Shown here: positions 9,858-29,663 of the stretch, in pieces | Layout: each line of letters begins with the position of its first letter | Numbering within the stretch: position 1 is the first letter of the stretch | The notes under the pieces: model-generated | Databases searched by the model: none | Told to the model about the DNA's origin: nothing | What the model saw: only the letters and a program-made list of their open reading frames with translations | Source: Cliona cf. orientalis | Taxonomy: Eukaryota; Porifera; Demospongiae; Clionaida; Clionaidae | Direction: 5' to 3' | Length of the DNA: 64,000 bases | Assembly: GCA_963930775.1 (NCBI GenBank) | Contig: OZ005705.1 | Location: 2,728,001 to 2,792,000 of the forward strand | Translations under genes and position numbers: made by a program

Positions 9858-10070
9858 TTTTCACTAGGTTATGAAGCTCAGGACTAGTAAGGTATCGGGA
9901 CTCGGGGGGATTTCATCTGCCAAAGGTCAACCTCGTGACATCAATACACATGCCATATAAATTGTGCACAAGGTTACTACGTTTATATAGCAACACGAGC
10001 CAAAGCGTACACTACTAGTACTATGGTGGCACATTGTGCAGCGCTGTACACTCAGCTCCATCAAATTAAA

Positions 10071-10091
10071 GGCATTGTGTCACGATATAAG
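10071..10091 (+). repeat. Left terminal inverted repeat of the MULE
   Basis: This 21-bp terminus differs from the reverse complement of 14992-15012 at one position (T versus C at base 10). Weaker inverted similarity (TACTAAATTTA versus TAGTAAATTAG) continues inward for about 20 bases. Confidence 0.75.
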
Positions 10092-10276
10092 CGGTGATTG
10101 TTACTAAATTTAGATCGAGTATACGGACTCGCGTTGTCAAAAAGGGAGGCGCTTTATTCACAGTACTCCATCTGAGGACGGCACGTGATGCTGTGTGGGG
10201 CGTGGCCATATATGGGTGTGTCCATAGCGCACATGGACTTTGCGAACTTGGCGCGAAAACCAAACACGTTGCTGGC

Positions 10277-13200
10277 ATGGCTATCTCCGCAGGCAAGCCC
10301 TCCTGGGCTCAAGAGTTGAGATCTGTTGGGCTGAATTATTATGGAGGGGTTGTGAAAAACGTAGATGATGTATTGGAAGAGCATAGAAGAGACACACACT
10401 GTACTTTTGGAACCAGAAGCTCAAAGAAACTTGGATCTCTCACTACAAACTCATGTCAGCAAACTGAAAGTGAGAGCCCCTCCTCGGCGTTATCGTCGAT
10501 GCAGCAGGATGAAAAGGAAAATGCTAACCCTAAGAAAGTACGTAAATATAAATATTATTCTGTGAATCTGGTGCTATTTTAATCTCTGTTTTAATACAGG
10601 CAACAAAAACCAAAATTTTCTGGCAGCACACAATAGAGAATGAACAAATTGAGTTCAACTACACTCCTTTCACAGTCACTGAGACAAGACGACTTGATTG
10701 TCAGTTTGGCAAACAATATTTTAAGGAAAAACCCGCCAAATCCAACCGCACTAGACTCCAAGGGACACGGAAAATTGGCTGTCCAGCCCACATCACCGTC
10801 AAGACTCTCACTCTCTTTCCAGAGTACGCCATCGAAGATCCATCCTCACTTGGTCCAAGGAAACTGAAGGAAACTAAAACAAAAAAATTGGAGGAATTAC
10901 GTGCTGCTTCTGAAATGAAAATCGAAAAAAGGTATTATATTGTGCTCCCAACCAAAGAAGCACACCATAGTGTACATCCCACAGAAGGTGCTATTGGGTA
11001 TGCTCAAAGGATGCATCCAAAATTGGCAGAAAAAGTTCAAGATTTGGTATCTGAAGGAATTACCAATGTACCAGAGGTAACGAGGGCTTTAAAGTATTAT
11101 GTTAACCACACCTTATGCCCTGACTCTAAACCAGACATCTCTGATCGGGCTTACTACCCCACTGCTGATGACATAAGAAACCATATTTATCGTGCACAGA
11201 AATCATGCCAGCTCTCACATCTTGACCAGGAGAATCTACGCTTGAAAATTGAACAATGGAAAAAAGATGACCCAGAAAATTTATTTTTGTTTAGACCATT
11301 CACTGAATCAGAGCCTGACCATGATACAAGACAAAACTCACCTAACACTTTAGAGGCACCGCCTTCTTCACTTTTATTTATCCATCAAAATGCGTGGCAA
11401 CAGCAGCTCCTAATCAAGTACGGAAATACAATTTCACTCTTGGATGCTACATACAAGACAACTAAATATGAACTCCCACTGTTTTTTCTATCGGTGAAGA
11501 CAAATGTAGGATACTCTGTGGTTGCAGAATTTGTTATTCAGTCTGAGACTGCCCCTCAAATTAGTGAAGCACTAAATATCTTATCACAGTGGAATCCCAC
11601 ATGGAAACCCAAGTTTTTTATGACCGACTACTGCGACGCAGAGATGTCAGCTATTGAGGAGGTTTTCCCAGAATGTAAAACTTATCTTTGTGACTTTCAC
11701 AGAGAGCAGTGCTGGGAGAGGTGGGTGAAAGACAGAAAGCACGGACTTTCACAGGTAGAGGCAGAAGGGTTGCTCACTTTGTTGAGAAAATGTGCACATG
11801 CCCAACCATCCAGTGATGGGATTGCTGTTGATCATGGCTACCAACAGCAAGTTCGACTCCTAAAACAATCCTATATTTGGGGAAAAAATCAACAGGTTAG
11901 GGAATGGTTACAAACCAAGTGGCTGCTAATCCCTCAGGTAAGTTGTACCTCTACACAACCCCTCTAACTAGTATACAGTACTATGTGTGTGTGTACCTGG
12001 ATTAACAGTGTTAACACAGTACAAGGCTGTACTGTAAACCCACAAACACTACCATCCTTGTAGTGGCTTGTTGTAATGATTACTATGTAATTATGCAAAT
12101 TGTACAAGTGCTGCATGCATGTGCACACTGCTATGGGATACAATAAACCACAAGTATGCATTTATTACAGAAATGGGCTAGAGCATACAGAGATGGATCA
12201 TACCATGCTGCAGTGAATACAAATAATGGAGCAGAGTCCCTAAACAAGGTGTTAAAGTACAGTTTCCTTCCAAAAAAGAAATCCTTGACACTATCAAAAA
12301 CGATTTCACTGCTTATCGACGATTTTCTACCAATAAGCCATCAGAAGTACTTATTCCAGAATTATAAGCAATCAAGCCAATACAGATCGTACAAAGGTTT
12401 TGTGCCTGATTACTTGTGTGGACGACCTCGCAGTACAATACTACACTGCTTGGAGCGAAAAACGAAGGCACTCAAGTATTCTCTGAGTGATACAAATGCA
12501 ATAGACTTGGAAAACGGGAAGTTTACAGTAAAAGGCACAAAGAATAAGACACATACCATTGATTTTGGATCAACAAATGCAGAACACATGCCTTCCTGCA
12601 CTTGTCAAGACTGGACTCAATGGCACATGCCTTGTAAACATTTTTTTGCGATTTTCAACCTCTATCCTGAATGGGGTTGGCATCAACTACCAAACGAGTA
12701 CTTGAACAGTGCTTACCTCAGTACTGACACTGATGCTCTTCAAAGCAATTTCTCCCTTGCACAACCAGAGGATCCTTTCAGCACTCAAGAACTACCTGAG
12801 GAAGACAATAGCACTACTAGCCCGGTGGTTGACAAAATACCAACACATAAGGTATTATAATAAGCATGACAGTAATACCATAGATTATTGACTACATTGC
12901 ACTCCAGACACTGATAAGCTCTCTCAAACAAGAAGGAGAAAGGGCTAGAACAAATCTAAGAGTGTTGGAAACCCTCACATACAGCTGTATAAACCCCGGT
13001 GATTTGCACGAACTTTCAGTAAAGCTAGACGATCTTGCTAAAGAATTTCGATCAAAGTTACCGCAGTCAGAGGGACTGGTATTACAGCCAAATGCACGCA
13101 GAGCAGCCAGACGAAGAGCTCAACAGGTTAGTAAAAAGTACAAAGCACTACCCTTGAAAACAAGGCGTGGAAGGGTACGTACAGACTGGAAGGTCAGAAA

Positions 13201-14422
13201 TCGTGTGGGTGCAAAAGAGTGGACCGGCTAAAGAAGGTAACAATTATTGGATCGAAATAAATAAAATTTTTGACCCCCCCCCCCCCCCCCCCCCCCCCCC
13301 ACTATCATGTAGGCAGCAGGAGCGTTTCTGAAGCAGAGCTTTTCATGCAGTAATACCATAACTTCCGCACATTTAAACCAAGTGAAGAAGCCATCCATGG
13401 GAAACGAGTTACTAGTGGATACTTCAACGAGTGGCTCACACACAATTAAATCTCAAAAAGCTGGTGAGTCGGGCACAAAATTAGCATCAGATTCTATATT
13501 ATTTCTGAATCATACACATTTACAGGAAAGAAGAGAAAGCGATGTGGTTCGTGTTCAGCTTGCTCTCGTGAAAACTGTGGGCATTGCTCATCATGCAAAG
13601 ATATGCCAAAATTTGGGGGGCCGGGACGCAAAAAGCAGTGCTGTGAACTAAGGAGATGTCTTGTCGCTGATGTTAACCTCTCAAAGGGACATGTATGTGC
13701 AAATAAAATTTGTTTGTGCATGTTAAGCATACTTATATAGGATCTAGGAGCAATTTGTCTATAATATCAATCTCTCTCTCTCTCTCTTTGTCTCTCTAAA
13801 GGGCTCTTCTCAATCCAAACAAGCAAATGAAGGTATAGGCACCAAGAAATTTCTTGAAAGTCAAGCTAGACAGATAGTGCCAATGCTACCAGATGGAAAC
13901 TGTCTGTTCAGATCTGTAGCTCATCAACTTGTTGGGGATGCTGAACAGCATGATCAACTACGCCAAGCTACGGTTGCTTTCGCTGCTCAAAATAAAGAGG
14001 CACTAAAGGGATATTTACCCCAGGAAGAGGGAACTGAAAGTTCTTCATTACAGGATCATTTACAGCGAATGTGCAAAGTAGGATGCTGGGGGACCCACTG
14101 TGAATTGAGAGCGATGGCCTCAATGCTACAAGTACCCATTTATGTTCTAACAGACTCACTTGTTCCTGGTGAGTGTAGATGGACCCGGTTTGACCCATGG
14201 CTTTCTCCTGGAGACGACACTACAGCTCTGAGTCCGAGCGATGAAAGTTGCACAACATCTTGGATAGCAGGAGTCCTTCAGGGTGGTCTACTACCACAGT
14301 GGATAGAAATATGCCACTCCAACGCGGTACACTATGACAGCATAGAGTTTAAGGGTCCAGATCCTCACTCACCACCATGTCTTTCCGAGAGTTCTGTTCC
14401 TGCTATTGTTGTCCTCGAATAG
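10277..14422 (+). CDS. MULE transposase with SWIM, CXXC and OTU domains
   Basis: Exons: 10277-10537, 10600-11937, 12171-12851, 12908-13174 (or to 13126), 13313-13463, 13526-13692, 13802-14422. All phases agree, giving about 1,161 residues (1,145 with the shorter exon 4). The start is the first in-frame ATG. The N-terminal region has a C/H-rich motif (RRLDCQFG...[14 protein letters not shown]) like a DNA-binding finger. The DDE core has LLDATYKT (D369), FMTDYCDAE (D430), a C/H signature ([10 protein letters not shown]) and [11 protein letters not shown] (E555). A SWIM finger follows at C676-x-C678...C688-x-H690. Exons 5-6 encode a CXXC zinc finger ([34 protein letters not shown]), the type that binds unmethylated CpG. 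Exon 7 is an OTU-type cysteine protease: PDGNCLF (D986, C989) and NAVHYD (H). All key residues look intact. Joining exons 5-7 to the transposase is inferred from phase and spacing; they could in principle be a separate gene. Confidence 0.83.
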
Positions 14423-15427
14423 TCTTAGCACTTTTTATCGTGCCAGTCTTTTTGTTTACATATCTTTGTGTATTGTGTATATACGTGCCAATAATATTGA
14501 ACAGGATGTCACGTGGTGTAATAATTACTTCCGTTCATCAGATGGAGTGAATAAAGCGCCTCCCTTGTCAAAAATAGCGCACATACAAAATATTGTCGCG
14601 CGCTCCTCGTGGATGCCAGAACCCATCGAAAGACAAGGAAAGAACTTAGCTACTCGTCGCGCTACTAGAGGACTGGTATCTTTGTCTACTTTTCGACCCA
14701 CTCTCGCTCGCTAAAGGTAAATCTACTCGTGGTATACTACCTTGCACGTGGTAGATCTAGCTAGACAAAAACATCGCTACTCTGGCACAGCCGACTCTCG
14801 CCCGTCCTTCTGATAGATCTCTTACCTTCCTCCGCTAGCTGAAGACCTTCCAGCTCCAACACTCGAGCCTTTCTTGGACCGATCGCGTTCTGCTACCGCG
14901 AACTACAACCGTTGATTGAAAAGTGGCTGCCAGATTTCAATCTAATGGGCGCGGTTACATCACGTGTGACACTAATTTACTAAAAATAGCCCTTATATCG
15001 TGGCACAATGCCTTTAAATTAAACGCCATGCAATAACGACCAGCTGCACTGAGGGTAAATTAGTGCCACAACATGCCAGCTGATCACTTGCCCTATCTTT
15101 AAAATGGCTATAGTAATGGAGGCTAAATTATTATTATTAACTGCAATCAAGCCCTCAACACGGTCATGACTTAGTCCATGCATGATGATTTAGCATTAAC
15201 ATGATATGGAACATCTCTGCAACTTTCATATAATAAATAATAATACTATAATTATATTCAGCAAAATTGTCAGACATGTCAAACAGAGCTCCATGAGTAG
15301 TGCATGTCATTGTGGAATGAAAAAATGAAGTATTAAAATTTTTGATGAATAAAAATGATGTGGCAATTAACAATTATTACTATTGTTATTATGCTGGAGT
15401 CAATCAGCGTCAAGTGAATGCATGATT
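14423..15427. other. MULE right arm and 3' flank of alpha-glucosidase copy 2
   Basis: After the OTU stop codon comes the right subterminal arm (CACGTG at 14510, GAATAAAGCGCCTCCCTT near 14549), about 370 bases with no counterpart in the left arm, and the terminal repeat at 14992-15012. From 15013 to 15427 I see only AT-rich sequence up to the stop codon of copy 2. No further gene was recognised. Confidence 0.6.
14992..15012 (-). repeat. Right terminal inverted repeat of the MULE
   Basis: This is the reverse complement of 10071-10091 with one mismatch. The outer flank carries AAATTAAA at 15016-15023, matching 10063-10070. Confidence 0.75.

Positions 15428-29663
<14,236 letters not shown>

Follow-up and report, generated by a model that had tools for sequence, protein, structure and literature searches.

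A Mutator-like transposon family of the sponge Cliona cf. orientalis that appears to join ALS2CR8, transposase, SWIM, CXXC and OTU modules in one multi-exon gene

In Ginger1 elements, the transposase is followed by either an OTU or an Ulp1 protease, and one element carries a PHD finger (Bao et al. 2010; accessible part of PMC2836005). Their transposase is Gypsy-integrase-like and their target-site duplication (TSD) is CCGG or CCGT, whereas the element described here has a Mutator-like (MULE) core and a 10-bp TSD, TTGTCAAAAA, which rules out membership in Ginger1. The same part of that paper contains no occurrence of CXXC. Among MULEs, the Hydra element MuDR-6_HM (group 14) is credited with an "Ovarian Tumour Gene" (OTU) domain in the available portion of Dupeyron et al. 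2019 (PMC6446971); unlike for our element, no zinc finger or terminal inverted repeat (TIR) is listed and the TSD is unindicated, the two being compared by description only. CXXC does not occur in the main text of that survey. Maize MuDR/Mu resembles our element in its MULE core and SWIM finger (PMC6446971, portion available). Mu makes a 9-bp TSD and its insertions are concentrated at open-chromatin marks (PMC2774946, portion available).

A further set of animal MULEs carries an ALS2CR8 (CARF-like) domain. Representatives from Lytechinus (P0008, P0014), Crassostrea (P0017), Antedon (P0025) and Hydra (P0028, P0030) share with our element the core plus ALS2CR8, SWIM in several cases, and, downstream, a zinc finger and a cysteine protease belonging to the ubiquitin-like class. 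In several of them, unlike in ours, this protease is of the SUMO type, Ulp1, and a PHD finger lies behind it (slightly below the Pfam cut-off in P0017 and P0025). This Ulp1-PHD C-terminus is absent from our protein, and its replacement by CXXC and OTU identifies the element as a variant of the ALS2CR8-type MULE clade. Neither CXXC nor OTU was found, by Pfam or motif, among 36 protein relatives, many of which are partial gene models. We know of no CXXC or OTU in maize MuDR/Mu. The first-pass annotation had named no described MULE of the full architecture. As seen above, an OTU-bearing MULE was already listed; a CXXC transposase was not found in the titles and abstract beginnings of the papers listed by the literature searches, nor were CXXC transposons in the accessible parts of PMC12344493, PMC5890265, PMC10538959 and PMC8583499.

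The window analyzed is a 64,000-nucleotide stretch of contig OZ005705.1; the features of the locus are collected in Table 1. The element had been placed at 10071..15012, with an outer inverted repeat as its ends. This repeat (10063/15020) is part of a separate sequence of about 500 bp, flanked by TTAA. Window positions 14566-15012 are matched at least 40 times across the genome, and three copies of the ~500-bp repeat (L058-L060) are insertion-free: in each, the sequences on the two sides of the insertion point share a single TTGTCAAAAA, as in an empty site. These findings ruled out the outer repeat as MULE ends and shortened the element to the interval in Table 1. Similarity to sibling L051 spans window 10165-14565, in two pieces. 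The TIRs and 10-bp duplication agree with the TIRs and 8-11 bp TSDs of MULEs; a TSD of 9-10 bp is present at 18 of 20 paired insertions of relatives, and the family TIR pattern has 130 matches genome-wide vs 2 for the reversed pattern.

Table 1. Positions of the transposon, its exons and the interrupted host repeat in the window
Feature	Coordinates	Strand	Remarks
Host repeat interrupted by the MULE (10070-10143 + 14575-15013)	10070..15013	.	TTAA at each border; TIR AGGCATTGTG
Left TSD TTGTCAAAAA	10134..10143	.	single in empty copies L058, L059
MULE transposon proper, 4421 bp	10144..14564	+	TIR and 10-bp TSD
Left TIR of MULE GGGAGGCGCTTTATTCAC	10144..10161	+	imperfect continuation 10165-10189
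Exon 1, aa 1-87	10277..10537	+	
Exon 2, aa 88-533	10600..11937	+	ALS2CR8 10600-11205; MULE 11437-11700; D369 11443-11445; D430 11626-11628
Exon 3, aa 534-760	12171..12851	+	E555 12234-12236; SWIM ligands 12597-12641
Exon 4 up to family-conserved donor	12908..13236	+	first-pass end 13174
Exon 5, linker, aa 850-899	13313..13463	+	modelled in the window copy alone
Exon 6, CXXC finger with KFGGPG	13526..13692	+	Pfam match 13525-13659
Exon 7, OTU protease	13802..14422	+	D 13892-13894; C 13901-13903; H 14330-14332
Right TIR of MULE	14547..14564	-	imperfect continuation 14524-14548
Right TSD TTGTCAAAAA	14565..14574	.	

Among the domains named by the first-pass annotation, MULE (PF10551, E 1.6e-12), zf-CXXC (7.5e-14) and OTU (3.2e-15) match the window protein in a Pfam search. 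The strongest match, overlooked at that stage, is an ALS2CR8 (CARF-type) domain at aa 88-289 (E 1.5e-34), which precedes the core, as expected of the ALS2CR8-type clade; the genome contains 34 ALS2CR8 matches. The DDE triad (D369, D430, E555), described as intact, is indeed invariant in each family copy whose aligned piece covers it. The SWIM finger, common but not universal in MULEs, is present through its CxC...CxH ligands, which are intact in 10 of the 12 copies covering them (L042 and L043 are damaged). Its profile support comes from sibling L044 (1.5e-5); the window protein itself gives no Pfam SWIM match at E<=1. In a tree from which duplicates L006 and L011 and short pieces were left out, the nearest named kin are from the sponge Dysidea, which is sister to L041/L044, and the sea anemone Actinostola. 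A scan of viral contigs with exon 2 identified no relative.

The seven exons previously proposed for the window copy join in phase to give a 1161-aa protein. The exon 4 donor at 13174 is doubtful because in other copies coding continues for about 20 residues, to a ...RNRVGxKA..RK|V end corresponding to a donor at 13237. Compared with L051, to which it is 93% identical over 12801-13850, the window copy has 2 nt more in exon 4 (around 13214-13219), leading to a stop at 13229-13231. Use of donor 13174 is phase-compatible and bypasses the stretch holding both the insertion and the stop. The seven-exon model is therefore doubtful at exon 4 as the only reading, and the copy cannot be called intact unless the earlier donor is used; with its two extra bases, it may be decayed. 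Exon ends are common to the window copy and L052, L054 and L056 at most modelled junctions, and all domains have open frames in three other copies.

The CXXC finger is complete, as first described, with eight Cys residues and a KFGG loop of the CpG-binding type. KFGG-type CXXC fingers recognize unmethylated CpG. Its nearest matches are KDM2B (E 5.8e-13), FBXL19 and CFP1; these fingers and that of DNMT1 have the same eight-Cys spacing and KFGGPG loop, but reside in host chromatin proteins, not transposases. The OTU domain likewise holds up, with the fold and the Asp, Cys and His residues; its best PDB matches are OTUD3, OTUD1 and OTUD5 (E down to 2.4e-10). Excluding the frameshifted L042, the Cys is found in 10/10 aligned copies and the His in 7/10, all seven that reach it. 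In averages taken without L051 and L024, third codon positions are the most variable in both the OTU (0.67 vs 0.55 and 0.45) and the CXXC segment (0.61 vs 0.31 and 0.28); the OTU differences between the window copy and L051 fall 0/0/4 by codon position. This pattern argues that the function of both modules has been kept. Some fingers are damaged: L043 lacks the first Cys, L042 the last Cys residues as well as the OTU Cys, the loop is changed in L051 and reads KFSG in L056, and L041/L044 start with C-x-C. A CXXC tree of 41 columns gave no decision between one capture and several, and branches in the OTU tree are too long for dating the module.

The genome contains 38 CXXC matches, 21 of them within 8 kb of MULE or ALS2CR8 matches. 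At all 21 places CXXC lies downstream of the transposase matches and on the same strand, with no other arrangement seen, and at 13 of the 21 OTU is also present (among the best 87 of 113 OTU matches). Eight CXXC-bearing copies have cores that are 57-64% identical and two have cores at 33-40%. CXXC is accompanied by OTU, by Ulp1 (L041/L044) or by no protease (L043). Of the 31 clusters in which ALS2CR8 or the query matched (among the best 39 of 71 whole-protein matches), 11 are without CXXC, and neither CXXC nor OTU was found in L047-L050. Copies of exactly the window type are few. The ALS2CR8-MULE-SWIM-CXXC-OTU architecture thus almost certainly belongs to a real family.

Our main reading, to which we assign a probability of about 0.68, is that of a Mutator-like family with a multi-exon gene for ALS2CR8, a DDE (RNase H-like) core, SWIM, a KFGG CXXC finger and OTU, the last two having the following proposed roles. 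While the ALS2CR8 and SWIM domains and the catalytic core would bind the ends and mobilize the element, the CXXC finger would bind unmethylated CpG and bias the complex to CpG-rich unmethylated DNA; the DNA so bound could be target sites, the element's own CpG-rich ends, or both. OTU would deubiquitinate the transposase, or else chromatin and repair factors at the site. The chance that OTU works as a deubiquitinase in transposition may be put just below even.

CpG is depleted in the window (observed/expected, o/e, 0.48); the CpG depletion of the genome resembles methylation. The left flanks of 20 insertions of the protease-free CXXC subfamily have a mean o/e of 0.85, against backgrounds of 0.47 (p 2e-7) and 0.61 (p 5e-4), drawn from one window and nine loci, a non-random genome sample. 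Values of at least 0.75 are reached in 12/20 flanks vs 18/146 and 21/69 in the backgrounds. The nearest 300 bp average 0.93 vs 0.55 for GC-matched sequence, a level attained in 0 of 5000 draws, and the excess is absent by 300-400 bp. The sample comprises these 20 sites, left side only, and 7 TIR-bounded elements; among the latter, L043 has CpG-poor surroundings (0.296). The earlier proposal that CXXC finds unmethylated CpG-rich DNA gains indirect support from the contrast with the depleted window, but the contrast with a non-CXXC transposon is weaker: flanks of a TTAA-type element, not a MULE, average 0.66 (n=8; p 0.055, not significant), or 0.72 over all flank stretches (n=18, p 0.12). We regard the flank data as suggestive of CXXC guidance of insertion, not as proof; that the finger steers by CpG methylation is slightly less than an even bet.

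The bias might instead reflect a general MULE taste for open, promoter-like chromatin in which CXXC plays no causal part. We consider this a strong contender, though somewhat short of even odds: the values of the TTAA-type flanks and the concentration of maize Mu at open-chromatin marks (PMC2774946, portion available) both fit it, whereas the excess over GC-matched background and its confinement to the nearest few hundred base-pairs weigh somewhat against it. Extending CXXC guidance further, we tentatively propose that the family may read DNA methylation, with CXXC directing insertion to unmethylated CpG-rich DNA and also restricting end recognition to unmethylated copies, the reader (PHD/CXXC) and protease (Ulp1/OTU) forming an exchangeable cassette behind a conserved transposase. 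Less likely is a role for CXXC chiefly at the termini of the element itself, where it would recognize ends still unmethylated or shield them from methylation, with target choice secondary. Over end segments of 250 bp (for the window copy, 133 and 142 bp), the 7 TIR-bounded elements do have o/e values of 0.58-1.27 vs 0.43-0.53 for whole elements and the 0.48 of the window; but CpG-rich ends may just contain a promoter, and the values at two 3' ends fall to 0.58 and 0.68.

Transposase, CXXC and OTU very probably form one polypeptide. A natural protein of 277 aa, P0054, carries CXXC and OTU in an uninterrupted frame; about 56 residues link the two, compared with 41 in the window copy, a difference too small to contain an ordinary intron. 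At the end of exon 4, L051 and the other copies read at this point have a RK|GT splice donor and no stop. The second gene of MuDR is mudrB, and exons 5-7 might likewise be a second gene, separate from the transposase. This is improbable, even though no copy was seen with exons 4, 5 and 6 in a single frame and exon 5 of the window copy contains an in-frame ATG: against it stand the exon 4 donor of the copies read and the exon-5-like frames recognized by eye in L052 and L054, which have no Met. A protein search with residues 880-1161 of the full query gave 3 matches, none a transposase; a shorter CXXC-OTU query gave 17, including P0040, the window's own frame. The family-wide order and orientation, the residues kept in most copies, the OTU fold and P0054 support the original proposal of a single gene for MULE, SWIM, CXXC and OTU.

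MULEs are prone to acquiring host gene fragments (PMC6446971, portion available), but chance capture (Pack-MULE) or a nested insertion as the source of the CXXC and OTU exons is contradicted by the family pattern (identical order at 21 places, CXXC shared by cores of such different identity, codon positions typical of a selected protein) and is most improbable. Equally hard to credit is a domesticated, immobile host gene, which the conserved DDE residues and the few copies of the exact type would allow, but which the TIRs with TSDs, the empty site and the 130 TIR-pattern matches contradict for the window locus.

A preference for open or unmethylated DNA is common among transposons. A KFGG CXXC finger built into a transposase, in a genome with methylation-like CpG depletion, makes the way a cut-and-paste transposase senses such DNA directly testable through one 45-residue module. 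Sibling subfamilies with OTU, Ulp1 or neither, together with the PHD-bearing relatives, constitute a natural comparison series. These findings suggest that a reader combined with a ubiquitin/SUMO protease is a recurrent accessory kit of animal MULEs.

The seven-exon gene predicted in the first-pass annotation splices in phase to yield a protein of 1161 residues, in which Pfam recognises each of the MULE, CXXC and OTU domains that had been named; the best match, ALS2CR8, had gone unmentioned. Critical residues are retained in most copies of the family: the proposed DDE triad (D369, D430, E555) is invariant wherever the aligned pieces extend there, and the SWIM ligands (CTC...CKH) persist in 10 of 12 copies. 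The finger is indeed of the KFGG type, its nearest solved structures being KDM2B, FBXL19, CFP1 and DNMT1. At the sequence level the OTU exon resembles OTUD1 and OTUD5, and an AlphaFold model (built from 14 sequences; pLDDT 75.6) matches OTUD3, OTUD1 and OTUD5 in fold.

Domains of the window protein, host repeat and variant loci of the sponge's own genome
Feature	Position	Description
ALS2CR8	aa 88-289	Pfam, E 1.5e-34, strongest match
MULE	aa 367-454	Pfam, E 1.6e-12
ZSWIM1-3 RNase H-like	aa 350-447	Pfam
zf-CXXC	aa 899-944	Pfam, E 7.5e-14
OTU	aa 985-1072	Pfam, E 3.2e-15
~500-bp host repeat	window 10070-10143 + 14575-15013; also L058-L060	TTAA borders, AGGCATTGTG ends, at least 40 matches
L041	C1:34366500-34375000	MULE-SWIM-CXXC then Ulp1 (Peptidase_C48), E 4.5e-9
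L044	C1:35474500-35483000	MULE-SWIM-CXXC then Ulp1 (Peptidase_C48) pieces, E 1.7e-4 + 4.2e-5; TIRs, 9-bp TSD
L045	C1:262000-268500	CXXC + OTU behind different transposase; 23-bp inverted repeats 4.2 kb apart
L046	C1:29749000-29756000	CXXC + OTU behind different transposase, the latter judged by eye

The element has moved in the past. Two pairs of inverted repeats, one nested inside the other, occur at the locus; the outer pair (10063-10091/14992-15020), originally taken for the MULE ends, belongs to another repeat, and window segment 14566-15012 by itself matches the genome at 40 places or more. Three copies of that repeat were read (L058-L060), and in these its two sides join with an overlap equal to the 10 bases doubled in the window, TTGTCAAAAA, which identifies the MULE as 10144-14564, that is, 4421 bp with a perfect 10-bp target-site duplication (TSD). 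The insertion target was a copy of a ~500-bp element bordered by TTAA, and L058-L060 and the window together are a natural empty-site comparison. Its TTAA suggests that this repeat is a piggyBac-like MITE; its CpG observed/expected ratio (o/e) is 1.2-1.3 in the copies read and 1.30 in the window's target. A little way downstream of the MULE, a single open frame of 1866 aa (16215-21815) has the appearance, by eye, of a Ty3/Gypsy-type gag-pol.

The frame of exon 4 continues through an RNRVG.KA...RK|V-like end in the sibling L051 and in L021, L024, L032, L043, L050, L052, L053 and L054, L056 being shorter at this point. In the window copy, two additional bases create a stop at 13229-13231, ahead of donor 13237. 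The donor chosen in the first-pass annotation, 13174, keeps the phase at the cost of about 20 conserved residues. Judged from sequence, the window copy would be either broken or rescued through this earlier donor. L051, 93% identical to the window over 12801-13850, has decayed further (a ~2.7-kb insertion, a changed CXXC and loss of the exon-6 donor). L052, L054 and L056 carry long open frames covering all domains, as well as TSDs (GTAGCTATAC, by eye, ATAGTGAAAC and TGACATAAT, respectively); frame-keeping junctions were found in all three, the link from exon 4 to exon 6 being purely formal because exon 5 lies outside the model.

These copies belong to a family with a shared domain order. The genome yielded 58 MULE (150 of 153 candidates scored), 38 CXXC, 113 OTU (150 of 181 candidates scored) and 34 ALS2CR8 matches. 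A MULE or ALS2CR8 match lies within 8 kb of 21 of the 38 CXXC matches, upstream and on the same strand in all 21, with no other arrangement seen; OTU follows downstream in 13 of them when the best 87 of the 113 OTU matches are clustered. Four further loci have CXXC then OTU with no recognised MULE, and 13 CXXC matches, an unsorted set of host genes or fragments, stand alone. Of the 31 clusters that contain an ALS2CR8 match or a whole-protein match (best 39 of 71 of the latter), CXXC is present in 20 and absent from 11. The 40 MULE clusters devoid of any other part were counted as other MULE families, and neither CXXC nor OTU was found in four loci fetched for their transposase parts (L047-L050). 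Contig C1, 17% of the assembly (37.5 of 216.8 Mb), holds 15 of the 21 CXXC-MULE clusters. One database protein, P0054, has CXXC and OTU within one frame, and short relatives of the OTU module (P0041-P0053, 47-88% identity) lie on other database contigs. Among diverged copies the third codon position is the most variable in both modules, as expected under protein-level selection. Some fingers are imperfect: the first Cys is missing from L043 and the last ones from L042, KFSG replaces KFGG in L056, and L041 and L044 begin C-x-C.

A tree of the transposase core places the CXXC-OTU copies in a single clade (support 98/99) of 15 rows, which takes in two CXXC-only copies, two of unknown C-terminus and database proteins P0001-P0003. 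The Ulp1-bearing L041 and L044 group outside it, with Dysidea P0036, suggesting either repeated gain or movement of CXXC or its loss in the intervening lineages; a tree of the fingers themselves gave no resolved branching. OTU was not found before the terminal inverted repeat (TIR) in CXXC-bearing L043, L024 and L021, nor could any protease be recognised by eye. The transposase part of L045 consists of pieces matching C2H2 and ZSWIM1-3 RNase H-like, plus a weak FAR1-like match; a long open frame adjoining this element (L045 4504-6502) looks NACHT-LRR receptor-like by eye. Outside the genome, the full query matched 36 proteins (best 7991 candidates by shared words), many of them partial models; neither their listed Pfam domains nor a motif check revealed CXXC or OTU in any of the 36. 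Several, from Lytechinus, Crassostrea, Antedon and Hydra, end in Ulp1 and PHD, the PHD of P0017, P0025 and P0031 being marginally below the Pfam cut-off.

Parts of this architecture have precedents. The Hydra MULE MuDR-6_HM is listed with OTU, as in the window family, in PMC6446971, whose main text does not contain "CXXC". Ginger1 has OTU or Ulp1 behind its transposase, and Ulp1 was already described in Mutator elements (PMC2836005; "CXXC" has 0 occurrences). The open-licence papers searched yielded no description of a MULE with CXXC.

The window has a CpG o/e of 0.48 and a TpG value of 1.29, which would fit a methylated genome. Whole elements range from 0.43 to 0.53, and their ends from 0.58 to 1.27 (250 bp per end in six TIR-bounded relatives; shorter non-coding ends in the window copy). 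Target DNA (up to 500 bp) gave 0.885 for L044, 0.864 for L052 and L054, 0.997 for L056, 1.245 for L042 and 0.296 for L043. A TIR pattern had 130 matches, versus 2 when reversed. Among the first ~100 of these, the most frequent TIR type formed about 27 pairs; we took 20 of them, on C1, C2, C3, C5 and C6 (omitting two neighbouring pairs and any on C7-C9), and read the left 400 bp. At these sites, all of one TIR type corresponding to a CXXC subfamily without protease, flanks are biased towards CpG: mean o/e is 0.85, with 12 of 20 at 0.75 or above, versus 0.47 and 18/146 for stretches of the window (p 2e-7) and 0.605 and 21/69 for stretches of nine other loci (p 5e-4). The closest 300 bp reach 0.93 versus 0.55 for GC-matched draws from the same backgrounds (0 of 5000 draws get there), and pooled values over successive 100 bp are 1.02, 0.95, 0.92 and 0.54. 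A 9-10 bp TSD, mismatched in one case, accompanies 18 of the 20 sites; most insertions thus look young, and their flanks should still reflect the pre-insertion state. Two of the 20, L067 and L071, have target sequences 93% alike and insertions ~5 bp apart, a possible hot spot. Counting against guidance by CXXC, CpG-rich flanks may not be peculiar to elements that carry it: a non-CXXC TTAA element averages 0.66 in 400-bp flanks (n=8, p 0.055) and 0.72 over all flank stretches (n=18, p 0.12).

In the mechanism we propose, ALS2CR8, a WRKY-GCM1-like DNA-binding fold, and SWIM would aid end recognition, and the DDE core would cut and join DNA. CXXC may bind unmethylated CpG at targets, at the element's own ends, or both, classic zf-CXXC domains being known to bind nonmethylated CpG (PMC10538959). 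OTU could strip ubiquitin from the transposase or neighbouring factors; for OTU/Ulp1, Bao et al. raised the possibility of an action on repair factors during or after transposition (PMC2836005). Insertion of a CXXC-bearing MULE might be guided by methylation, a hypothesis that is both testable and interesting.
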